Part shown: positions 1-59,686 of the stretch, piece by piece
Position numbering within the stretch: the stretch's first letter is position 1
Layout of the letters: every line of letters starts with the position of its first letter
Assembly (NCBI RefSeq): GCF_013201645.1
Contig: NZ_CP053842.1
Span: forward strand, 558,001 to 622,000
DNA from: Campylobacter corcagiensis
Lineage (GTDB): Bacteria > Campylobacterota > Campylobacteria > Campylobacterales > Campylobacteraceae
Length of the DNA stretch: 64,000 bases
Direction: 5' to 3'
Program-made: the position numbers and the translations under genes
The notes under the pieces: model-generated
Databases searched by the model: none
Told to the model about the DNA's origin: nothing
Seen by the model: only the letters and a program-made list of their open reading frames with translations

Positions 1-444
1 CCTATTTTTGCAGAGAAAGTTGAGGTTACAGCTGATAATTTTTTTGCTGATGAGGTAAAATTAATAAGTGTTTTAACAGGCAATGTTCATGTAAAAAAAG
101 GCTCATATGACACACTTGATAGCAATAAAATCACTATCTATTTTGATAAAAATAAGCAACCTATAAAGTATGAAGCCACTGATAATGCTAGGTTTAAAAT
201 CTTAATCAACGAAAGCCACTATAATGGCAAAGGAGATAAGCTTACATATATTCCAGCTGAGGATAAATACATCCTTACTGGAAATGCTTGGATAGAAGAA
301 GTTGAGACTAAAAGAGAGGTTTTTGGAGATATTATAACTATAAGCCAACTTGATGGAAAGTATGAAGTTGATAGCTTTAGAGATAGTAAAAACAAAGATA
401 AAAAACCAGCAAGACTAATATTTCATGTTGAGGAAAAAAAGTGA
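1..444 (+). CDS. lptA: LptA/OstA-family LPS transport protein, C-terminal part
   Basis: Open from the first base of the window in frame 1 to TGA at 442-444, so the N-terminus and signal peptide are missing. The visible 147 residues read as an alternating beta-strand repeat protein (GNVHVKKGSYDTLDSNKITIYF, shortened here to its start GNVHVKKG), as expected for the periplasmic LptA bridge that carries lipopolysaccharide to the outer membrane. The stop overlaps the GTG of engB by four bases, which suggests translational coupling. An lptA-engB neighbourhood is familiar in Campylobacter. The assignment rests on fold-type resemblance and context; an LptC fragment is less likely. Confidence 0.75.
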   Translation, partial: PIFAEKVEVTADNFFADEVKLISVLTGNVHVKKGSYDTLDSNKITIYFDKNKQPIKYEATDNARFKILINESHYNGKGDKLTYIPAEDKYILTGNAWIEEVETKREVFGDIITISQLDGKYEVDSFRDSKNKDKKPARLIFHVEEKK

Positions 445-1040
445 TAAAAACAGGGGCTGCTAACTTTATCACATCATCTCCAAATTTAAGCCTTAGTCCA
501 AATTTTGGACTAAGTGAGGTTGTGTTTATTGGGCGATCAAATGTTGGCAAAAGTAGCCTTATAAACTCACTTGCAAATCATAAAAATTTAGCAAAAAGTA
601 GCCAAACACCAGGAAAAACTAAGCTTATAAATTTCTTTGAGATAAATTTTATAGATGAAAGTGAGAGATATAAACTTGTTTTTGTTGATTTGCCAGGTTT
701 TGGCTATGCAAAGGTTGGCAAATCAACGCATGAAATTTGGTCAAAAGCACTAGATGAGTTTGTAAGAAATAGAAGCACTATTAGGCTTTTTATTCACTTA
801 AAAGATTCAAGACATTTTGATTTAGATATTGATTTAGAAGTGGGAAATTATCTAAAAGATATAAAAAAGCCAGATCAAACCATACTAAATTTTTATACAA
901 AAAGTGATAAACTAAATCAAAGTGAGCGTTTTAAAGTTCTTAAATTTGATCCATCAGCAGTTTTTGTATCATCGCTAAATCAAAAAGGAATTGATAAAGC
1001 CAGAGAGCTCATCATAAAAGGAACTTTTGGTGGAATTTAA
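441..1040 (+). CDS. engB: Ribosome biogenesis GTPase EngB (YihA/YsxC)
   Basis: A 199-residue TrmE-Era-EngA-EngB-Septin-like GTPase that assists large-subunit assembly. G motifs are visible in order: GRSNVGKS near residues 31-38, TPGKT near 56-60, DLPG near 83-86, TKSD near 152-155 and an SSL G5-like motif near 175. Length is normal for the family. It starts with GTG inside the end of lptA and runs 14 bases into the next gene, so it sits in a tightly coupled operon. Confidence 0.97.
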   Translation: MIKTGAANFITSSPNLSLSPNFGLSEVVFIGRSNVGKSSLINSLANHKNLAKSSQTPGKTKLINFFEINFIDESERYKLVFVDLPGFGYAKVGKSTHEIWSKALDEFVRNRSTIRLFIHLKDSRHFDLDIDLEVGNYLKDIKKPDQTILNFYTKSDKLNQSERFKVLKFDPSAVFVSSLNQKGIDKARELIIKGTFGGI

Positions 1041-1485
1041 AAAAGCAAAACTAAAAGATATATCTTTGATGCAAGAGATGATAAAACCTGAGATTGAAAG
1101 TGGAGTCATACTTCCTAGGTCAAATGACGAGATAGCAACTTCGATTCGCTCATACATTTTAGCTTATGAAAAAGATGAGCTTATCGGGTATGGAGCACTT
1201 AAAATTTATAGTCAAAAATTAGCTGAGATTAGAAGTCTTGTTATAAAAAGAGAATTTAGAGCAAAAGGAGTTGGCTCAGCTCTTGTAAAAGAGCTTTTAA
1301 AAGAGGCAAAAGAGTATGAGATAGAGGCTGTTTTTGCGCTAACTTACAGGGATAAATTTTTTATAAATTTAGGTTTTGAAGTTGTTGATAAAGATGAGTT
1401 GCCTAGTCAGAAAATTTGGGCTGATTGTATAAAGTGTAAGAACTTTCCTGTATGCAACGAAATAGCAGTTATTTACAAGTTTTAG
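1027..1485 (+). CDS. GNAT acetyltransferase, probable short-form N-acetylglutamate synthase
   Basis: A 152-residue GNAT enzyme. The acetyl-CoA loop RAKGVGSALV is clear near residue 80. The tail carries a CIKCKNFPVCNE-type cysteine cluster that I associate with short, single-domain N-acetylglutamate synthases, the first step of arginine synthesis. The start could be TTG at 1027 or GTG at 1030; both lie inside engB. The 3' end overlaps the next gene by more than 30 bases. The substrate assignment is an inference from the tail motif. Confidence 0.8.
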   Translation: MVEFKKAKLKDISLMQEMIKPEIESGVILPRSNDEIATSIRSYILAYEKDELIGYGALKIYSQKLAEIRSLVIKREFRAKGVGSALVKELLKEAKEYEIEAVFALTYRDKFFINLGFEVVDKDELPSQKIWADCIKCKNFPVCNEIAVIYKF

Positions 1486-1940
1486 AGTTTGTTTGCTTGC
1501 CAATAGCTTTGATCTTGTATCAGTTTTTAAGCTCGGTATTTAGCTCGTTGCCACCACTTCTTGGGCTATTTTTTACATATGCTATTGTTAAGCATTATGA
1601 AAAAGATGTAACTTATAAAGACTATAGTTCAGGGTGGTATATCGCTGTGGTTTATCTATTTGTGATTGAGCAAATTCATGGATTTAAGCCACTTTCGGTT
1701 GGAATTTTTTTTGGAATTTATTACTATTTTTTATTTGATTATATAGTTAGGAGTGTTAAATTTAGGGATTTAGCTCTTATGATAACGGCTGCTTTTGGCT
1801 ATATCGGGACATTTTTAACGAGTAATTTTTTATCATATTTAAATAACGATAGTTATCTTGTTTTTGGGTTTGAGTATGTTACATTTATATTTATAGAAGC
1901 AACTCTTAGTTTGCTTTTGTTTAAAGGACGAATTATTTGA
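1452..1940 (+). CDS. MreD-like multi-pass membrane protein
   Basis: A 162-residue protein with about five hydrophobic segments. No catalytic motif is visible. It lies immediately before mrdA/PBP2 with a TTGA stop-start overlap. In other bacteria mreD is next to PBP2, and the size and topology fit MreD, a membrane partner of the rod-shape elongasome. Sequence divergence makes this a context call. The start ATG lies within the preceding gene. Confidence 0.6.
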   Translation: MQRNSSYLQVLEFVCLPIALILYQFLSSVFSSLPPLLGLFFTYAIVKHYEKDVTYKDYSSGWYIAVVYLFVIEQIHGFKPLSVGIFFGIYYYFLFDYIVRSVKFRDLALMITAAFGYIGTFLTSNFLSYLNNDSYLVFGFEYVTFIFIEATLSLLLFKGRII

Positions 1941-3751
1941 GACTTAAAATAGCTGCTTTTTTTGTGATTTTTGTTTGGGTACTTATCCTTTCAAGATTAT
2001 ACTATTTAAGCATAGTATCAAATGAAGAGTATGCAAGTATCGCGAAAGAAAATGCTATTAAAACCAAAGATATTCCACCAACAAGAGGGCAAATTTTAGA
2101 CTCTAAAGGTAGACCTGTTGCTATAAATTTGCTAGGGTACTCTCTTTTTTTAGCACCCCATCTAAAAAACGAAGAACTAAATAAAGAGATTTCATATATA
2201 GTTGATGTTTTTAAAGATCAAAATTCAAGCAAAGATTTAAACGCAAGCCTAATAGAAAAAGAGTATAAAAAACAAAACTCACCGTACAATCAAGAATTTA
2301 TAAAAGTTGTTGATTTTTTAGATTATGATAGAGTTATACCGCACTTTGCTAGATTAAATTTACGCTCAAATTTAATGGTTGAACCAGCTTCACTTAGGCA
2401 CTATCCTTATGATAGCTTAGCCTCTCATGTAGTTGGCTATGTAGGAAGAGCTACAGCTAGAGATATAGAAAAAAACCCGCTCTCACGCCTTACAAACATA
2501 ATGGGAAGAAGTGGAGTTGAGGCTTATTATAATGATATTTTACAGGGTAAAAAAGGCGAACGCCAAACAAAAGTTACAGCACTAAATCACATTGTAGAAG
2601 AGATATCATATGTAAAACCACAAAGTTCTGATATATCGCTTCATATAGATATGGAAATTCAAGAATTTTTAAAAGATCTTTACAAAGATCACTCAGGTGC
2701 TGTTATCATAATGGATGTTGAAACTGGAGCGATAATAGGAGCGGGAAGTTTTCCTGAGTATAGCTTAAACCCTTTTGTTACTGGGATTAGCTCAGCTGAG
2801 TGGAATGAGCTAATAAACGACCTTGATCATCCATTTACAAATAAACTCGCAAATGGTCTTTATCCGCCAGGTTCTGTCATAAAAATGGCGATGTCACTAG
2901 CGTTTTTAAATAGCGGTAAGATTACTAAAGATACTAGCCATTTTTGTGGCGGTTACTTAGAGTATGGAAAAAATAAGCACAAATTTCGCTGCTGGAAGCG
3001 TTGGGGTCATGGCGATATGAATATGAATGATTCTATTAGGGAAAGCTGTGATGTTTATTACTATGAAAACAGCCTTATTGTAGGCATTGACTTTATAGCT
3101 GCAAATTTAGAGAAATTTGGATTTGGTAAAAAAAGCGGTGTTGATTTGCCAAATGAGTTTTTAGGAACTGTTCCAAGCAAAGCATGGAAAATGGAAAAGT
3201 ACAACCAGCCGTGGTATATAGGAGAGACAATCATTACTTCCATAGGGCAAGGAAGTATGCTAGTAACTCCTATACAAATGGCAAAACACACTGCTGAAAT
3301 TGCAAGTGGCAAGGGCTTAACACCTCACTTTTTAAAAAGTATAGATGGCAAAGAAGTTGAGTTTGATACATATGAGGTTTTTAGCTCTTTTGAAAAAGAT
3401 CAACTTCCTGCCATAAGACATGCTATGTATGAGGTTTCAAATCACCCAAAAGGAACGGCTTATAGATATACAAACGATAGTAGAGTAAAGATTGCCACTA
3501 AAACAGGAACTGCTCAAGTTGTAAGCATACCACAAAGTGAAAAGGTTCGCATGAAAGAAAAAGATATGGAGTACTATCAGAGATCTCATGCTTGGATAGT
3601 TGGTTTTGGTCCTTATGAAAAACCAAAATATGCTGTAACTGTCTTAGTAGAACATGGTGGTGGCGGAAGTAGTGTGGGTGGTCCTATCATAAAAAGAGTT
3701 TTTGAAAAGCTTTTAGATATGGGATATATCGACGAAAATGCTACGAAATAG
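1937..3751 (+). CDS. mrdA: Penicillin-binding protein 2 (elongasome transpeptidase)
   Basis: A 604-residue class B PBP that cross-links peptidoglycan during cell elongation. A single N-terminal membrane anchor (residues 5-25) is followed by the dimerisation domain with the PPTRGQILD motif. The transpeptidase domain shows the active-site GSVIK (Ser near 313), SCD as the SxN/D box near 370, and KTGTAQ near 521. All three motifs are intact. The TTG start overlaps the previous stop, giving an MreD-PBP2 pair. Confidence 0.97.
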   Translation: MRLKIAAFFVIFVWVLILSRLYYLSIVSNEEYASIAKENAIKTKDIPPTRGQILDSKGRPVAINLLGYSLFLAPHLKNEELNKEISYIVDVFKDQNSSKDLNASLIEKEYKKQNSPYNQEFIKVVDFLDYDRVIPHFARLNLRSNLMVEPASLRHYPYDSLASHVVGYVGRATARDIEKNPLSRLTNIMGRSGVEAYYNDILQGKKGERQTKVTALNHIVEEISYVKPQSSDISLHIDMEIQEFLKDLYKDHSGAVIIMDVETGAIIGAGSFPEYSLNPFVTGISSAEWNELINDLDHPFTNKLANGLYPPGSVIKMAMSLAFLNSGKITKDTSHFCGGYLEYGKNKHKFRCWKRWGHGDMNMNDSIRESCDVYYYENSLIVGIDFIAANLEKFGFGKKSGVDLPNEFLGTVPSKAWKMEKYNQPWYIGETIITSIGQGSMLVTPIQMAKHTAEIASGKGLTPHFLKSIDGKEVEFDTYEVFSSFEKDQLPAIRHAMYEVSNHPKGTAYRYTNDSRVKIATKTGTAQVVSIPQSEKVRMKEKDMEYYQRSHAWIVGFGPYEKPKYAVTVLVEHGGGGSSVGGPIIKRVFEKLLDMGYIDENATK

Positions 3752-3886
3752 CTCAATATATTTAGTATTTTGGCTATGAAATATAATAAACCCTAACAAA
3801 ATAACTAAAAAGATTTATAATTTTAAAAGTTATAAATTTGTGGAGTAAAAGACAAATAAAGAACTAAATTAAAAAAGGAAAAACTT

Positions 3887-5191
3887 TTGAAACTAAGCTT
3901 TATAAGCTCACTTAAATTTATAAACTTAATAATATTAACACTAATACTTTCATCTTGTGATGATAATAATAAATCACACTTCACAGTTACAGCTGATACT
4001 GTCATTAAACCAGGATCTGAAATTTCAAAGTATGTAACTCAAGATGAAATTAATAGCTTTGGATTTAGATACTGGGATATAGATAATAATTACACTGAAT
4101 TTGTTAATCCTATAGCCATTCCATTAAGAGATGCTTTAAAACAAAAAAACACAAATAAAGTATTAAGTTATTTAAAAGATAATAATCTAAGTGCAGATAT
4201 ACAAATAGAAGATGGAACAACACCTATAATGTATTCAAGCTTTTATAATGATATAAATACTACAAATGAACTAATAAAACTAGGTGCTGATGTCCATAAA
4301 AAAGATAAGTATGGTTTAAGCCCTATGGCTTATGCTATTTCTATGAATAGCATAGATGTAGTTAAAGCTTTAATTAATAGTGGTGTTAAATTTGAAGAAG
4401 TACCACTTACTCAAGGATATATTTTAACACCAAGCTATAGAAATATTGAAAAATTAGTAATAGATGGTGATAATATAGAAATCATCTATAAATACAATAA
4501 TGTTCAAAAAGATTACGATACGCCTAAGGGTTATGGATATATGTTTGATGATATTGTTTTTAAAAACTGGTTAGAACTAGCAAAAATAATCCTAGATAGT
4601 GGCTATAAACCATATCCATATTTTTTTAATGGAGATGAAGTTTTAGTTGGAAATAGTATATATGATATTTTTCCAAAAGAAGAAGTCAACAATGCTATGG
4701 ATATAGAGTTAGAAGAGTATAAAAACCAAGCTGGTGATAATTTTGATTTAAAGCTTTTTATAGATGACTTTTCATATGATTACTCTTTATATAAAGTTTT
4801 AGAAAATGTTCCCAATCACGAACCAATGCTAAATTTACTCCTAGAACACAATATCTCAGGACAACCATCAAAAGAGCTAATGAAAAAAGTGTATGATAGT
4901 GAATGTTATGATGACTATGTTTGGCATTCCAAAACAAAAGAAAATAAAGGTATAGATAAAAACTATGAAATATTTTTTACACTAAGATTAAAATTAGCAC
5001 AAAGTATGTGTTCTGATAAAAATGGAACTTTTAATAATATAAAAGATTATATTTATTATAAAAATAGGAGAAATTTAACAGACGGCATTGTAGGTATCAT
5101 AAATAGTGGTGATAAGGTGATTTTTAAAAATCCAACGGATACTATTTATAATGAAATAAATACAATAAATGGTAAAAATTTCATAGAATAA
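3887..5191 (+). CDS. Ankyrin-repeat lipoprotein
   Basis: 434 residues starting at TTG behind an AAAAAGGAAAAA ribosome-binding site. Residues 1-24 are a lipoprotein signal (basic start, hydrophobic core, LILSSC lipobox, Cys24). Ankyrin-type repeats appear around residues 108-165, for example DGTTPIMYSSFYND and KYGLSPMAYAI. The C-terminal half has no recognised motif. It probably faces the periplasm as a membrane-anchored interaction scaffold. Gene-specific function is unknown. The neighbours are not functionally related. Confidence 0.8.
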   Translation: MKLSFISSLKFINLIILTLILSSCDDNNKSHFTVTADTVIKPGSEISKYVTQDEINSFGFRYWDIDNNYTEFVNPIAIPLRDALKQKNTNKVLSYLKDNNLSADIQIEDGTTPIMYSSFYNDINTTNELIKLGADVHKKDKYGLSPMAYAISMNSIDVVKALINSGVKFEEVPLTQGYILTPSYRNIEKLVIDGDNIEIIYKYNNVQKDYDTPKGYGYMFDDIVFKNWLELAKIILDSGYKPYPYFFNGDEVLVGNSIYDIFPKEEVNNAMDIELEEYKNQAGDNFDLKLFIDDFSYDYSLYKVLENVPNHEPMLNLLLEHNISGQPSKELMKKVYDSECYDDYVWHSKTKENKGIDKNYEIFFTLRLKLAQSMCSDKNGTFNNIKDYIYYKNRRNLTDGIVGIINSGDKVIFKNPTDTIYNEINTINGKNFIE

Positions 5192-5432
5192 TATCTAAAA
5201 AAATACTAAAAAGTGATAAAATTATAAAATCTAAAAAATTAAAATACAAATAAATAATGTAAATTTAAATTAATTAATTTTAAATAGTAGCTTGATAATA
5301 TTAAAAGATTTTTATAGAAATGTTATGGTAATATAACAAAATATCAGAGAAAAACTAGGTAATTTTACACAATAGCACCTTTTAAAACAAATATCAGTAA
5401 AATTATAAAACACTAAATTTATAAGGAAAATT

Positions 5433-54245: not shown

Positions 54246-54606
54246 GGGGGTGACTTGGCTTCGACAGGAGTAGAGTGGTCACGGTGGCATGTCGCTTTGA
54301 GCAAAGCGTTAAAAGCTCAAATTAAAATTAAACGCAAATAACGTTAAATTCGCTCCTGCTTACGCAAAAGTAGCGTAAGTTCAGTTGAGCCCACTAACTT
54401 TTGATACTATCTAGAAAGTTTTAGTGGTCATTTTGATAGTGTAGTTTAGATGTTTGACGAACATTTAAGTGAAATTTTAGTCTTAGTCTAAGATTTTGGT
54501 TTTTGAAAAGTGAGCCTTTTTAGATGAAATTTTCACTTTTGCTAAGCATGTAGAGGCTTTGGTCTTTTGCTTTTGGACTGCGGTTCGACCCCGCACACCT
54601 CCACCA
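54246..54606 (+). ncRNA. ssrA: Transfer-messenger RNA
   Basis: Starts GGGGGTGACTTGGCTTCGAC and ends with GACCCCGCACACCTCCACCA; the ends pair as an alanine-like acceptor arm. The tag reading frame at about 54334-54378 reads ANNVKFAPAYAKVA then TAA, differing from the C. jejuni tag I recall at the penultimate residue. It rescues stalled ribosomes. An integrase lies next to its 3' end, the usual island target. Confidence 0.97.
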
Positions 54607-54741
54607 ATTTTATATAACTTAAATATCCATAAACATATTTTAACTAACTTAAACACTCATATTTTAGGCAATTTCAAGCTATTTTTAGCCAACTTAAGTT
54701 ATCATTGTAAAACTTTAAAAATATTAAGTAGTTAATATTTT

Positions 54742-54792
54742 TTTGGTGCAAGATTTGGTACAAGGCTAAATTTATATATTTTTTGTACCAAA
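54742..54792. repeat. Repeated TTTGGTRCAA motifs before the integrase
   Basis: TTTGGTGCAAG (54742) and TTTGGTACAAG (54754) are direct repeats; TTGTACCAAA (54783-54792) is the inverted copy of the second. They lie between the tmRNA end and the integrase start, where arm-type binding sites or an integrase operator would be expected. Confidence 0.55.
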
Positions 54793-54815
54793 ATTTAACT
54801 CTAAAAGGCTAAATA

Positions 54816-56000
54816 ATGGCATTAACTGATACAAAGATAAAAGGCTTAAAGCCAAAGGAAAAAAGACAGCGTTACACAGATGCTAATAACCTAGCTCTTA
54901 TGGTAGAACCACATGGGCGTAAGTATTTTATAGTTCGCTTTAAAAGCCCTATCACACATAAATACCGCACCTTTAATATCGGAAATTACCCAAACATAAG
55001 CTTATTAGAAGCTAGAAAAAAAGCCTTAGATATAAAACAAGCAGTAGAAAAAGGCATAGATCCAATGGAAAAGCCAAAAATAGTGACATTAAAAGAGATA
55101 GCCACAGAGTGTCTTAATCTAAAAGAGGGTAGGGTTACTCAAAAGCACTTCAAGCGTTGCCACTCTCATATGGAGCTTTATGTTTACAAGGAACTAGGAG
55201 ACAAAGATATAAAAAGCATAACGGCTGATGAGGTTATCAAAACACTTAAGCCGCTTGAAATAAATGCTAAATTTGATACCCTGCAAAGAACACTCACCAT
55301 TTTAAAAGAGGTCTTTAGATACGCTCATATGAGAGGTCTTATCATAACAAATCAGATACAAAGTATCAAAAGTGATATGGTTTTTAAAACTCACAAAACA
55401 AAAAACTATCCAGCCCTTACAAGCATAGATGAAGTTAGGGACTTAGTAGAAGCTATCAAAGCATATAAAGGCGATATCCGCACAAAAATAGCCCTAAAGC
55501 TTAGCTTACTAACAGCAAATCGTCCATTTAATATAAGAACAGCTAAATGGAGTGAGATAGACCTAGAAGCTAAAATTTGGACTATACCAGCTGATAAAAT
55601 GAAAGCTAGAAGTGAACATATAATCCCACTTGCTAACCAAACAGTAGAGATTTTAAAAGAGTTTAAAAAGATAGATTTTAAAAGCCAGTATCTTTTTCCT
55701 AGCCAACTCTCAAAAACTCGCCCAATGAGTGATGGCACAGTAAATACAGCACTTCGCCGTATGGGATACTCAAAAGATGAGATGGTAGCTCATGGTTTTA
55801 GATCTATATTTTCTACACTTTGCTATGAGTATCAGCACAAGCACAAAGCCACAAGCGAAGTTATAGAACAATGCCTAGCTCATAAAACAGCAAATGAAGT
55901 AAAATCAGCTTATGATAGAAGCTTAAGACTAGAACAAAAGCGAAATTTGATGCAGTGGTGGGCGGATTTTTTAGTAAATTATAATAATTGTAAGATATAA
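54816..56000 (+). CDS. int: P4-type tyrosine integrase
   Basis: 394 residues. N-terminal DUF4102 arm-binding start MALTDTKIKGLKP, then a core-binding and catalytic domain with Arg236, His326-xx-Arg329 (MVAHGFRS), His356 and Tyr366. It catalyses integration at a tRNA or tmRNA gene. Adjacent ssrA is the likely site. No matching attR is visible in this window. Confidence 0.95.
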   Translation: MALTDTKIKGLKPKEKRQRYTDANNLALMVEPHGRKYFIVRFKSPITHKYRTFNIGNYPNISLLEARKKALDIKQAVEKGIDPMEKPKIVTLKEIATECLNLKEGRVTQKHFKRCHSHMELYVYKELGDKDIKSITADEVIKTLKPLEINAKFDTLQRTLTILKEVFRYAHMRGLIITNQIQSIKSDMVFKTHKTKNYPALTSIDEVRDLVEAIKAYKGDIRTKIALKLSLLTANRPFNIRTAKWSEIDLEAKIWTIPADKMKARSEHIIPLANQTVEILKEFKKIDFKSQYLFPSQLSKTRPMSDGTVNTALRRMGYSKDEMVAHGFRSIFSTLCYEYQHKHKATSEVIEQCLAHKTANEVKSAYDRSLRLEQKRNLMQWWADFLVNYNNCKI

Positions 56001-56021
56001 TTATCCAAAAAAAGAGGTAAA

Positions 56022-56726
56022 ATGGCAGTAAATAATAAGCCAAAACTTAGCATCCAAAGGCAGATAAATAAACTTAAGACTAAGGGTATAAAATTTGTTA
56101 TATTTTCACAGAGTGAAGCTTATAAATTTTTGCAAAATCATAGTTATTTGTTTAAAGTTAAGGCATACTGCAATACATTTAAAGAAAAAGACACCAATAA
56201 CAAGACTTTACCATACTGTAATCTAGATTTTGCTCATTTGGTTGATTTGTCTACAATAGATATGCATTTTAGAAGATTCGTAATAAGGCTAACTCTTGAT
56301 ATAGAGCATGCATTAAAGACAAAATTAATGAGAGACTTTAATTTAAGTAATAATGATGGATATGATATTGTATCTAATTTTCTAACATCAAATAGCTATA
56401 CTTACAACTTTATATGTAGAGAAATAAACAAAACAAATAACAATATTAATAGTGGTAGAGACTTAATATCTACAAATCAATTTATTTTAAGTAAATATGG
56501 TATGGATTTGGCAATATGGAATTTTATAGAAGTTATTCAATTTGGTCACTTAATAGAATTTATGAAGTTTTTTTATAGTAGATATCCCAATAGAAATTTT
56601 AGAAAAATTGAAAATAGCTTATTTAATGTCAGATGTTTAAGAAATGGGTCTGCACATAATAACTCTTTACTATCCAATTTAAAGGATAATATACAAAATC
56701 CACAAAATGAAAAATATAACAATTAA
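56022..56726 (+). CDS. Abi_2/HEPN abortive-infection protein, N-terminal part
   Basis: 234 residues. N-terminal Abi_2 pattern (INKLKTKGIKF, YSYLFKVKAY-like, DIEHALKTKLM) and the HEPN RNase-type motif R207-x4-H212 in LRNGSAHNN. Complete AbiD/AbiF-type proteins are about 300 residues, so this lacks its C-terminal part, which is read in the next overlapping frame. It sits one gene after the integrase, a typical cargo position. Confidence 0.8.
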   Translation: MAVNNKPKLSIQRQINKLKTKGIKFVIFSQSEAYKFLQNHSYLFKVKAYCNTFKEKDTNNKTLPYCNLDFAHLVDLSTIDMHFRRFVIRLTLDIEHALKTKLMRDFNLSNNDGYDIVSNFLTSNSYTYNFICREINKTNNNINSGRDLISTNQFILSKYGMDLAIWNFIEVIQFGHLIEFMKFFYSRYPNRNFRKIENSLFNVRCLRNGSAHNNSLLSNLKDNIQNPQNEKYNN

Positions 56727-57061: not shown

Positions 57062-57142
57062 TTAGCCCCTTGTAACTTTTAAAGCGATATAAACTAATAA
57101 AACCACTTCTATAACTTCTAAAATTTCTAAAACTTCACTCAT
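57062..57142 (-). CDS. 26-residue hydrophobic peptide A2
   Basis: ATG behind AAAGGAGTT. The sequence begins MSEVLEILEVIEVVLLVYIA and ends LKVTRG: an acidic amphipathic start, one membrane-length helix and a basic end. Same length as peptide B2 at 59.06 kb in the same position relative to its locus. Too short for ordinary gene callers. Confidence 0.65.
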   Translation of the reverse strand: MSEVLEILEVIEVVLLVYIALKVTRG

Positions 57143-57155
57143 TTTAACTCCTTTA

Positions 57156-57164
57156 TGCTATAAT
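57156..57164 (+). promoter_or_regulatory. Antisense extended -10 promoter (locus A)
   Basis: TGCTATAAT on the plus strand, pointing against peptide A1. Start would fall near 57171, at the anti-RBS element. The antisense RNA would cover the A1 gene and could end at the T-run 57298-57305. Confidence 0.55.
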
Positions 57165-57186
57165 TTTACAAGGTCAAGACAAAACA

Positions 57187-57206
57187 CTAAGGGCTTTTGC
57201 CCCTAG
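57187..57206 (-). repeat. Internal hairpin of locus A
   Basis: CTAAGGGC-TTTT-GCCCCTAG, eight pairs with one G-U, just after the A1 stop and before the anti-RBS. Not followed by a U-run on the minus strand, so not a simple terminator. Confidence 0.6.
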
Positions 57207-57208
57207 CT

Positions 57209-57286
57209 CTAAATCCAAACTTTAAGGATTTTAGAGATTAGATAAACCAAAACTGCGATTTTGATTAAAATATCTAAAGTTTTCAT
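57209..57286 (-). CDS. 25-residue hydrophobic peptide A1, type I toxin-like
   Basis: ATG behind AAAGGGTCAAG, 26 codons with stop. It begins MKTLDILIKIAVLVYLISKI and ends LKVWI: one amphipathic, membrane-length helix with five charged residues, typical of type I toxins. Its RBS can be masked by downstream pairing and an antisense promoter lies opposite. Not seen by standard gene finding because of size. Confidence 0.68.
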   Translation of the reverse strand: MKTLDILIKIAVLVYLISKILKVWI

Positions 57287-57308
57287 CTTGACCCTTTCTT
57301 TTTTTATT

Positions 57309-57333
57309 TCAAAACGTATTATTTCCGTTTTGA
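57309..57333 (-). promoter_or_regulatory. 5' hairpin of locus A
   Basis: TCAAAACG-N9-CGTTTTGA, eight-base stem lying at the predicted start of the minus-strand RNA. The locus B copy has TCAAAAGT...ACTTTTGA: both sides of the stem changed together at two positions. Confidence 0.65.
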
Positions 57334-57340
57334 TAAGAGT

Positions 57341-57370
57341 ATTATACCAAAATTATACGATAAATGTCAA
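57341..57370 (-). promoter_or_regulatory. Consensus promoter of locus A
   Basis: TTGACA (57370-57365) and TATAAT (57346-57341), 18 bases apart, with TGG just before the -10 (TGGTATAAT). A near-perfect sigma70 promoter, rare for Campylobacter. Transcription would begin near 57334. Confidence 0.75.
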
Positions 57371-57424: not shown

Positions 57425-58129
57425 CTATTTTGAAAGTTCTTTTATAATATCTGATAAAGTATCAAGTGTTTTTAATCTATCTTTTAATTTTAAATTTTCT
57501 AAATAAAGCTCTAAAGCCTTAGACATAGCCGTTGATATATTACCAGTTCTTGAAGCTTTACTAATTGCTTCATCGCCATACCCTATCATCTCGCCAAGTT
57601 GTTTATAAGTTAAATTTAGCTCTTTGCATACTTTTTTTATCAAATTCTCATCTTTTTCATAATTTGGATCAAAATGCCACTCTATGACATATAGGTCTTT
57701 TCCTATTTTGTCTTGAAACACTATATGACTACCCCCCTCATGATAAAATACATCATACCCCACTATGCCTTTAATAATTGAACTTATTTCTTTGATTAGT
57801 TCTTTTTCATTACCTCTTTTTATCTCTGTTTTTGGGTTTATCTTGTCTTTCAGTATCCCCGATACTAAGATTTTAAAGCCATCTATTGGGTCGTGACCTA
57901 TAAAATTTACTTTTGGGTTATTTGTAGTAATATCTTTGTCGTATTTATTACTTATAAGCCAGTCATAAACACTACTTTCATCATCTTCATTTCTTAACTC
58001 TTCTTGGCAAAATTTTTTAAATTTACTATAGAGTGGATATATAGCTTTTTTATTGTCTGAATGAAGTGTAATACTCTCATCTTTTGCATATTTTTCACAA
58101 AGCTTTATAAATCTATCATTTGTCATCAT
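57425..58129 (-). CDS. Island protein with C-terminal HTH module
   Basis: 234 residues (ATG at 58129 or, better spaced from AAAGGAG, 58126). Residues 1-160 are not recognised. The last 75 or so (ELNLTYKQLGEMIGYGDEAI then NISTAMSKALELYLENLKLK) align with the whole 77-residue HTH protein at 59.5 kb, so this is a fusion of an unknown domain with an XRE-like module. A micro-peptide locus follows 55 bases after its stop. Confidence 0.7.
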   Translation of the reverse strand: MMTNDRFIKLCEKYAKDESITLHSDNKKAIYPLYSKFKKFCQEELRNEDDESSVYDWLISNKYDKDITTNNPKVNFIGHDPIDGFKILVSGILKDKINPKTEIKRGNEKELIKEISSIIKGIVGYDVFYHEGGSHIVFQDKIGKDLYVIEWHFDPNYEKDENLIKKVCKELNLTYKQLGEMIGYGDEAISKASRTGNISTAMSKALELYLENLKLKDRLKTLDTLSDIIKELSK

Positions 58130-58177: not shown

Positions 58178-58363
58178 CTAGCTTAAAAGCTCTTCATATT
58201 TTAAGACTTTGCTACTTTGTAGTTTGGACACTAAATCATAAAGGCGGTAGTAAATTCCTAGTAAAATTTGCTTTCGCTCACCTTTTGTATGCTTTGCTAC
58301 AAAATACAAAGTCTCTAGTTCTCTGCTGAGACGAACTAAATCTATAAGTTTAAGCTCTTTCAT
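58178..58363 (-). CDS. Small island protein, unknown
   Basis: 61 residues, helical and basic (LETLYFVAKHTKGERKQILL). It starts within the stop of the Rha gene (four-base overlap), so it is translated with it. No family recognised. Confidence 0.6.
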   Translation of the reverse strand: MKELKLIDLVRLSRELETLYFVAKHTKGERKQILLGIYYRLYDLVSKLQSSKVLKYEELLS

Positions 58364-59061
58364 ACTATACTCCTAAACACTTCACTTAAGATCTCTACAT
58401 TATAAGTTTTAATACTGTCAAATCTTGGGTCTATAACTGCTCCCATAGCTAAATTTAGCTTTTTGCTGAGGTTGGTAGCTTTTCTGCCTAGAGCTGAGGC
58501 GTTATACTTTTTAGCTGGTATGCCTTTTAAGTTAGCATAAGCTATCACAGTCATATAATTATCATTGTTTAAAAGGCGGTTAATATTGTGCTTAGTTTTT
58601 AACTGTTCTTTTTCTAAACCATCGGTTTTAACTTCAAGGCTTTTTAATTTTTGTTGGTTTTCTTTTAAAATTTTAGCTTGATGAATAAGTAGGTCAATCT
58701 CGCTTAAAGGCTCACTTTTTTCTCTTAGCATAGCTTCCATTTTGTTAAAGGCATTTATGTAAGCAACTTTAAATTTATATGCCTTTTCCCCAGTAAAACC
58801 CATAACAAGCAAAGAAAAACCATCTTTTGTTAGGTTGTAATACGGTTCACTTCTAACAACTGCCCCAAATTTAGCTGTTCGCTCCGTAAACGCAAAATTG
58901 CGTCGTCGGAAATCGTCGTCTGGTAAGTTCTCAATTGCCCTTATGGTATCAGCGTGTCTCTTTTCAAAAACTTCGGCAACTTGTAAAGATGTGATGAAAA
59001 TTTCATCACCACTATTTATAAACTCAACTTCTATATTATTTATAGTAACTAAAGCACTCAT
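58360..59061 (-). CDS. Rha-family phage regulatory protein
   Basis: 233 residues. N-terminal Rha domain (ITSLQVAEVFEKRHADTIRA, YYNLTKDGFSLLVMGFTG, KVAYINAFNKMEAML) and a coiled-coil linker with a C-terminal domain. Rha proteins are lambdoid and satellite regulators. Its ATG overlaps the stop of peptide B2, linking it to locus B. Confidence 0.88.
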   Translation of the reverse strand: MSALVTINNIEVEFINSGDEIFITSLQVAEVFEKRHADTIRAIENLPDDDFRRRNFAFTERTAKFGAVVRSEPYYNLTKDGFSLLVMGFTGEKAYKFKVAYINAFNKMEAMLREKSEPLSEIDLLIHQAKILKENQQKLKSLEVKTDGLEKEQLKTKHNINRLLNNDNYMTVIAYANLKGIPAKKYNASALGRKATNLSKKLNLAMGAVIDPRFDSIKTYNVEILSEVFRSIV

Positions 59062-59138
59062 TTTATACCCTTTTTACTTTTATAAATCCAAACGCAAGTA
59101 ACTATAAACACTACACTCATCAAAACATCTAACCACAT
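59058..59138 (-). CDS. 26-residue hydrophobic peptide B2
   Basis: ATG behind AAGGAGAG. Begins MWLDVLMSVVFIVTCVWIYK and ends SKKGIK, one membrane-length helix with a basic tail. The stop TGA overlaps the ATG of rha (ATGA), so it may also couple translation of rha. Confidence 0.65.
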   Translation of the reverse strand: MWLDVLMSVVFIVTCVWIYKSKKGIK

Positions 59139-59152
59139 TTTTACTCTCCTTA

Positions 59153-59161
59153 TGATATAAT
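59153..59161 (+). promoter_or_regulatory. Antisense extended -10 promoter (locus B)
   Basis: TGATATAAT on the plus strand, opposite to peptide B1. Expected start near 59168 within the anti-RBS element. Position and form match locus A. Confidence 0.55.
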
Positions 59162-59189
59162 TATCAAGGGTATCAGATAAGATTTTTTA

Positions 59190-59207
59190 GCCCCTTTTTA
59201 AAGGGGC
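59190..59207 (-). repeat. Internal hairpin of locus B
   Basis: GCCCCTTT-TT-AAAGGGGC, perfect eight-base stem just after the B1 stop, same place as the hairpin of locus A although the sequence differs. No U-run follows on the minus strand. Confidence 0.65.
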
Positions 59208-59212
59208 GGATT

Positions 59213-59290
59213 TTAAATAAATCCGAAAAGTCTTAAAATCCAGTAAAGGATTTGTAAAACTAATGCTAAAAGTTGCAACAATCTTAACAT
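59213..59290 (-). CDS. 25-residue hydrophobic peptide B1, type I toxin-like
   Basis: ATG behind AAGGAG, 26 codons with stop, exactly the length of A1. It begins MLRLLQLLALVLQILYWILR and ends LFGFI: almost entirely hydrophobic with two Arg, a typical membrane-active toxin pattern. RBS masking and an antisense promoter are predicted as in locus A. Confidence 0.68.
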   Translation of the reverse strand: MLRLLQLLALVLQILYWILRLFGFI

Positions 59291-59337: not shown

Positions 59338-59344
59338 TAAGAGT

Positions 59345-59373
59345 ATTATATACTAATTTTTACTTAATGTCAA
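59345..59373 (-). promoter_or_regulatory. Consensus promoter of locus B
   Basis: TTGACA (59373-59368), 17-base spacer, TATAAT (59350-59345). The block TATAATACTCTTATCAAAA is shared with locus A. Confidence 0.75.
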
Positions 59374-59452: not shown

Positions 59453-59686
59453 TTAGCTTTTTAGCCAAGACTTTAAGATATCTTTTGCTTTTTTTGCTTC
59501 GTCTAGCTCGTTTTTAAGTTTTAAAATTTCAACATACATATTTATAGCGTGTTCCATCGGCTTGCTAATATTGTTCGTGCTTACTGCCGATTTGATAGCA
59601 CCTTCGCCATATCCTATCAATTCCGCTAACTCCTTATATGTTAGCCCCATTTCCTTACAAAATGCCTTTAACTCATCAGCTGTCAT
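59453..59686 (-). CDS. Small HTH (XRE-like) regulator
   Basis: 77 residues from ATG behind AAAAGGAT. Reads MTADELKAFCKEMGLTYKEL, GYGEGAIKSAVSTNNIS and a helical tail. It matches the C-terminal module of the 57.4 kb gene. Followed by locus B. Probably controls the island or the peptide locus. Confidence 0.75.
   Translation of the reverse strand: MTADELKAFCKEMGLTYKELAELIGYGEGAIKSAVSTNNISKPMEHAINMYVEILKLKNELDEAKKAKDILKSWLKS

Follow-up and report, generated by a model that had tools for sequence, protein, structure and literature searches.

In a window of 64,000 nucleotides (nt) of the Campylobacter corcagiensis chromosome (contig NZ_CP053842.1, positions 558,001 to 622,000; all coordinates below are those of the window), a short unannotated stretch of a Campylobacter-type phage island carries a two-peptide locus on the minus strand, hereafter module A (57.37-57.06 kb; 57370-57062). 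The module begins with a sigma-70 promoter that matches the consensus at 12/12 positions (TTGACA-18-TATAAT with TG ahead of the -10, 57341-57370), is the top-scoring promoter of the region and places the predicted transcription start near 57334. The first bases of the mRNA would form a 5' hairpin with an 8-bp stem (TCAAAACG...CGTTTTGA, 57309-57333, z = -6.0), followed by the ribosome-binding site (RBS, AAAGGG) and start codon (57284-57297, mean unpaired probability 0.29) of P1, a hydrophobic, cationic peptide of 25 amino acids (aa) and putative toxin (MKTLDILIKIAVLVYLISKILKVWI, 57209-57286). Directly 3' of the P1 stop codon lies a GC-rich tetraloop hairpin (57186-57207), a candidate barrier to 3' exonucleases, and just beyond it a segment that we call the anti-RBS (57170-57185), in which GTTTTGTCTTGACCTT is complementary to AAGGGTCAAGATGAAAAC across the P1 RBS and start codon, with a pairing energy of -19.9 kcal/mol (z = -5.9 against shuffled sequences). 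A second peptide of 26 aa, P2 (MSEVLEILEVIEVVLLVYIALKVTRG, 57062-57142), follows with its own RBS, AAAGGAG. A preliminary description of the locus had listed these minus-strand elements, and all of them, promoter, hairpins, P1, anti-RBS and P2, are present at the positions it gave.

The same description had proposed an antisense start on the opposite strand, where an extended -10 element is indeed present (TGCTATAAT, 57156-57164, plus) and places a predicted antisense start near 57171. The predicted antisense RNA (57171-57309, plus), delimited by this promoter and by a T-rich tract at 57294-57309 that is its predicted end, would cover the anti-RBS, the hairpin, P1 and the P1 RBS, with a fold z-score of -4.1. 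Predicted to begin 29 nt upstream of where P2 starts, it would run in the direction away from P2 and leave the P2 RBS uncovered. On the sense strand, an mRNA with its start at 57334 is predicted to fold at -94 kcal/mol, as compared to -64 +/- 5 kcal/mol for shuffled sequences (z -6.2; 0/100 shuffles as stable).

The anatomy of module A is not only real but conserved. P1 was found in 14/153 and P2 in 15/153 genomes of the same family (E cut-offs of 0.1 and 1, respectively), paired in most of them with start codons 140-158 nt apart, and profile searches of 399 genomes of the order placed the pair in a second family as well (f13; genomes G402 and G457). Named records among the matches are Campylobacter portucalensis and Helicobacter sp. 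MIT 05-5294, and Helicobacter prophage BK070158, which alone among the records found is annotated, bears no annotation at the matching locus. In IMG/VR, the P2 pattern was matched by 12 contigs, one of which also carried the P1 pattern. Plasmid records yielded no DNA, P1 or P2 match, an Rfam scan returned only RNase P, transfer-messenger RNA (tmRNA) and tRNAs, and comparison of the peptides to Pfam, PHROGs and NCBIfam gave only sub-threshold, chance-like matches.

An architecture finder that makes no use of peptide similarity, requiring a hydrophobic open reading frame (ORF) with an RBS, complementarity between this RBS and a downstream segment, and a second small ORF, uncovered further modules with unrelated peptides beside the known ones. 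At least 38 distinct modules, encoding five or more types of peptide, share the same order of elements across Campylobacteraceae and Helicobacter-type genomes and prophages: type A, type B (MLRLLQLLALVLQILYWILRLFGFI with MWLDVLMSVVFIVTCVWIYKSKKGIK), which occurs in the same window as module A, type C (MELLISLTNLAAAIIALLTAITEYRKRKR), type D (MNASDVLELITALICLITAIINARKH) and type E (MKWLDLIIKLSRLVAIILWIIKILSG). Family searches with P1 of type B or type D alone also brought in loci of the same architecture, besides chance or decayed matches. Applied to the 1.66 Mb chromosome contig, the finder returned only module A, module B and one further match, a borderline false positive (-15.0), and in 32.8 Mb of dinucleotide-shuffled sequence it gave no match at -19 kcal/mol or better. 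Most modules have a sense promoter of 11-12/12 in the same place, most relatives with a long 5' untranslated region (UTR) have a 5' hairpin of differing sequence, and an equivalent of the hairpin after P1 was present in all modules folded. A general terminator function of this hairpin was rejected, a U tract being missing from most copies and P2 following it. On this comparison of sequences, the RNA chassis is better conserved than the peptides, which look interchangeable within it.

Module B lies in the same island (59.37-59.06 kb; 59373-59058, minus) and encodes peptides unrelated to those of module A; neither this module nor the phage setting figured in the preliminary description. Its parts follow the same order: a 12/12 sense promoter (TTGACA-17-TATAAT, 59345-59373), P1 (MLRLLQLLALVLQILYWILRLFGFI, 59213-59290, with homologues in 13/153 family genomes), a GC hairpin (59190-59207), an anti-RBS (59163-59180, -23.7 kcal/mol) and P2 (MWLDVLMSVVFIVTCVWIYKSKKGIK, 59058-59138), all on the minus strand, with an 8/8 antisense extended -10 on the plus strand (TGATATAAT, 59153-59161); the predicted starts are near 59338 (minus) and 59168 (plus). 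Elsewhere, a tandem array of small peptides was seen in which the first P1-like frame has ATA in place of ATG and keeps an anti-RBS complementary to its RBS (L003, 1268-1900, G005:C3). In another genome, decayed modules of types A and B, in neither of which a sense promoter can be recognised, are separated by about 1.4 kb (L015 and L196, G127), and two loci encode a P1-like peptide of 43 aa (MKALDVLIKVSSLVLIISKIIHI...; L018 and L019, position 1501) with neither a recognised P2 nor an anti-RBS, which could be a solo derivative.

Evidence for a mask on P1 comes from covariation. Across 15 modules, each RBS pairs better with its own anti-RBS than with most others, and the summed energy of own pairs was -304.5 kcal/mol against a permutation mean of -183, with 0/100,000 permutations as good. 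The paired sequences are wholly different between branches, as in GGAGTTAGCGAAATGGCA / TGCCATTTCGTTAAG (L014) and GGAGTAGCACAATG / CATTGCGCTACTC (L009), which is why we regard their joint change as compensatory. In ensemble folds, the unpaired probability of the RBS averaged 0.17 for P1 and 0.51 for P2 over the modules, the latter being about three times more open. These models indicate that, across the family, the P1 RBS is masked whilst that of P2 is not, and that the anti-RBS masks P1 only. A scheme in which the two RBSs compete for the anti-RBS in a mutually exclusive manner was not adopted, as constrained folding shifted P2 little (0.51 to 0.42).

The antisense promoter is likewise a property of the whole family. 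At 11-18 nt from the P2 start, antisense TGNTATAAT is present with at least 7/8 matches in 32/38 modules, as compared to 1.4% of shuffles, and is perfect in 23/38, as compared to 0.05%. It could be argued that this -10 and the inverted repeat only reflect AT-rich sequence and the translation signals of P2, with no antisense RNA made at all, and the region is indeed AT-rich. However, the perfect motif occurs at its fixed distance far beyond expectation, in modules with unrelated peptides too, and we consider this explanation very improbable; retention of the motif alongside unrelated peptides also shows that peptide coding does not account for it. We infer that an antisense RNA exists that starts at the anti-RBS, such that its 5' end would copy the sequence of the P1 RBS, and that it would extend across P1 as far as the T-rich tract that is complementary to the A-rich 5' UTR.

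Both peptides of type A appear to be under purifying selection. Pooled over 20 sequences of P1 and 18 of P2, the ratio of nonsynonymous to synonymous substitution rates (dN/dS) was 0.11 and 0.20, respectively, values that are approximate as dS is near saturation, and in both peptides third codon positions change most and second positions least. The second peptide of the preliminary description can thus be taken as real and selected. In three loci P1 is broken or lost: it is interrupted by an internal deletion in L085 and by a nonsense codon in L192, both of which retain the promoter, the mask, the antisense -10 and P2, and in L021 P1 is gone whilst P2 persists. This pattern is as would be expected if P1 is costly and P2 separately useful.

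The same data bear on the idea that P1 and P2 work jointly as two components, active at the membrane or in superinfection exclusion, P1 being the limiting partner. Purifying selection acts on both of these short, hydrophobic peptides, and P2 is found with P1 in every convincing module, also in searches that do not demand it. Such a pair is hard to reconcile with the survival of P2 after breakage or loss of P1 in the three loci above, or with the Helicobacter sp. MIT 05-5294 locus (L083), where type A P1 is partnered by an unrelated P2, and we regard this explanation as improbable. That locus holds three modules in about 1.8 kb, two of which pair type A P1 peptides with the unrelated P2, MSEIIGYVAEIAEVLVIVGLVFYVDALRKRIEKLESKED.

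The genomic setting links P2 to phage regulators. The stop codon of P2 overlaps the start of the next gene as ATGA in 27/38 modules, whilst that of P1 does so in 0/38. In module B, the P2 stop overlaps in this way the start of a Rha-type antirepressor gene, to which P2 would be translationally coupled (58360-59061, minus; PF09669, E 4e-26; phrog_518, E 9.6e-39); the frame downstream of module A is a six-codon remnant, leaving this module without an intact downstream gene. Across the family, a Rha or BRO antirepressor often follows the module, and immediately upstream there is a small XRE-type helix-turn-helix (HTH) gene, which may share the strand of the module or diverge from it. The HTH gene upstream of module B is of this small type (59453-59686, minus). 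The gene upstream of module A (57425-58129, minus; phrog_4779 transcriptional regulator, E 2.5e-13) is a putative regulator whose C-terminal part is an XRE-type HTH; elsewhere this HTH makes up a protein of 75-80 aa, whereas here it is joined to an N-terminal domain of unassigned function. The island itself begins with an integrase gene immediately behind ssrA (tmRNA), after which comes an Abi_2 gene of abortive-infection type (54246-56726). It also carries two HTH genes and the Rha antirepressor, and is apparently a small phage-derived island and not a complete prophage; a search for a second copy of its att site found none.

This setting invites a different explanation, in which the modules are lysogeny-control leaders: the masked P1 and the antisense RNA would tune a P2-antirepressor operon, with P1 as a mere leader peptide, in the manner of sar/ant of phage P22, c4-icd-ant of phage P1 and IsrK-orf45-anrP of Gifsy-1. 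Modules are flanked by an XRE-type HTH gene on one side and often by a Rha or BRO antirepressor on the other, the ATGA at the P2 stop is the same as the orf45/anrP overlap (PMC4825925), and antirepressors under antisense control are already known (PMC12197685). However, the mask and the predicted antisense RNA cover P1 and neither P2 nor the antirepressor, the modelled accessibility of P2 is near constant between states (0.51, 0.42 and 0.49), P1 is conserved as a protein, and in several modules (L016/L030, L017/L029, L083 and L090) no antirepressor comes next. A control leader of this kind is unlikely in our view, although less so than an effector pair.

Taken together, this analysis favours a prophage two-peptide module in which P1 is type I toxin-antitoxin-like and is built into the leader of a phage operon, whilst P2 is an unmasked cistron coupled to downstream regulators, a reading to which we assign a probability of about 0.6. 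The type I logic proposed in the preliminary description is thus strongly supported for P1, with the promoter, the long-distance mask, the antisense -10 and the hydrophobic peptide recurring as comparative evidence over 38 modules. P2 does not resemble a further toxin kept under a mask, since in these models its RBS is more open on average and since in most copies its stop codon overlaps the start of a phage gene. We posit that the strong promoter would be shut in lysogeny and opened on loss of an HTH repressor, as its position suggests. In the full-length mRNA, pairing of the P1 RBS and start codon with the anti-RBS beyond the P1 stop would keep P1 off and leave the P2 RBS open, yielding P2 together with the coupled downstream protein; P2 would then be the first freely translated cistron of the phage operon, usually coupled through ATGA and often to an antirepressor. 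The antisense RNA, in covering the anti-RBS, P1 and its RBS, would hold P1 off and dispose of stray RNA competent for P1 translation. Trimming of the 3' end back to the GC hairpin would strip the anti-RBS and free P1, by analogy with the activation of aapA mRNA (PMC6733600), and the small peptide, once released, would act at the membrane. A more ambitious version, which we put forward tentatively, is that a toxin-antitoxin module has been fused into a lysogeny switch of Campylobacterota phages, one promoter serving both the masked P1 and an antirepressor-coupled P2, so that, once repression is lost, antirepressor output would come first and a membrane toxin after mRNA trimming, with peptide pairs as exchangeable cassettes in a fixed RNA chassis.

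Several observations weigh against the favoured reading. Linkage to HTH and antirepressor genes fits lysogeny control without any toxicity, a few modules have no recognisable sense promoter, and the antisense -10 is weaker in 6/38. In module A itself the P2 RBS is modelled as no more open than that of P1 (0.28 versus 0.29), the contrast being one of family averages. The inverted repeat is also nearly as complementary on the antisense strand, with similar energies (p = 0.18); as both strands pair about equally well, the repeat may also serve the antisense RNA. It is possible that it is the stem of an antisense-strand terminator only, but G-U pairs lean to the sense strand (44 versus 26; p = 0.04, with rows that are not independent).

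Amongst known systems, the modules are by analogy closest in logic to AapA/IsoA, in their second peptide to yonT/SR6/yoyJ, and in phage wiring to IsrK-orf45-anrP. A small hydrophobic peptide gene with a masked RBS, as found here by sequence and fold, is a general type I feature. AapA/IsoA of Helicobacter pylori combines a hydrophobic peptide, long-distance pairing between RBS and anti-Shine-Dalgarno (anti-SD) sequence, a cis antisense RNA and activation by 3' trimming (PMC6733600). The modules share the small hydrophobic peptide and, by covariation (0/100,000), the long-distance pairing, along with a predicted cis antisense RNA and a proposed activation by trimming. A profile of 13 P1 sequences, not aligned to AapA itself, matched no natural protein at E<=10 among all PDB chains, where AapA1 is expected. 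In aapA3 the antisense promoter lies inside the toxin ORF and gives an RNA of about 80 nt (PMC6733600), whereas here it lies beyond the anti-RBS, 11-18 nt before the P2 start. In AapA/IsoA the mRNA is short and ends at the anti-SD, whereas here the anti-RBS probably lies inside the transcript, being followed by a second conserved ORF overlapping phage genes, often with further genes behind it, and the setting is one of prophages and phage islands. The likeness to AapA/IsoA suggested earlier thus extends to mRNA logic and not to membership: with no detectable peptide homology, an antisense promoter in another position and an mRNA layout that apparently differs, we regard the modules as a variant of the type I kind and not as part of that family.

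In yonT/SR6/yoyJ of the Bacillus subtilis prophage SPbeta, a polycistronic mRNA carries a further small toxin gene, and a single antisense RNA has an extended -10 promoter (PMC5848175); the system resembles the modules in its prophage type I layout, downstream second peptide and antisense promoter. SR6 overlaps both the 3' end of yonT and the RBS of yoyJ, whereas the predicted antisense RNA here covers all of P1 and heads away from P2; an intact yoyJ is confined to B. subtilis, whilst P2 is conserved. In Gifsy-1, isrK-orf45-anrP is a translationally inactive phage mRNA under RNA control, in which the stop of a small ORF overlaps the antirepressor start as AUGA (PMC4825925), the arrangement seen in module B with Rha and as ATGA in 27/38 modules overall, where the downstream gene is often an antirepressor. 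There, the controlled ORF is the one before the antirepressor and the RNA comes from the same strand, whereas in the modules the earlier P1 is masked and the predicted antisense RNA is from the opposite strand; moreover, the amino-acid sequence of orf45 is variable, whilst P2 is conserved. Antisense RNA also acts at the temperate-phage antirepressor operons c4-icd-ant of phage P1 and sar-ant of P22 (PMC12197685, PMC8546580). The sar RNA targets ant itself, whereas the predicted antisense target in the modules is P1. The c4 RNA is processed from the same strand. P1 peptides also recall Escherichia coli TisB, which is of about equal size and forms an amphipathic helix with Asp5 and spaced lysines (PMC8309996). 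The regulation of TisB is unlike that of the modules, and we offer the likeness as a lead only, not as homology. Arnion et al. reportedly surveyed such systems in related bacteria (NAR, 2017), and some copies may be listed there or in T1TAdb, which limits any claim of novelty.

If the favoured reading is true, phages of Campylobacterota would carry a widespread and so far unannotated class of peptide modules under RNA control, with a chassis of RNA that is kept and peptides that are swapped. Such modules would join type I toxin control and phage antirepressor control, usually separate subjects of study, and would provide a ready test set for the co-evolution of anti-RBS and antisense RNA.
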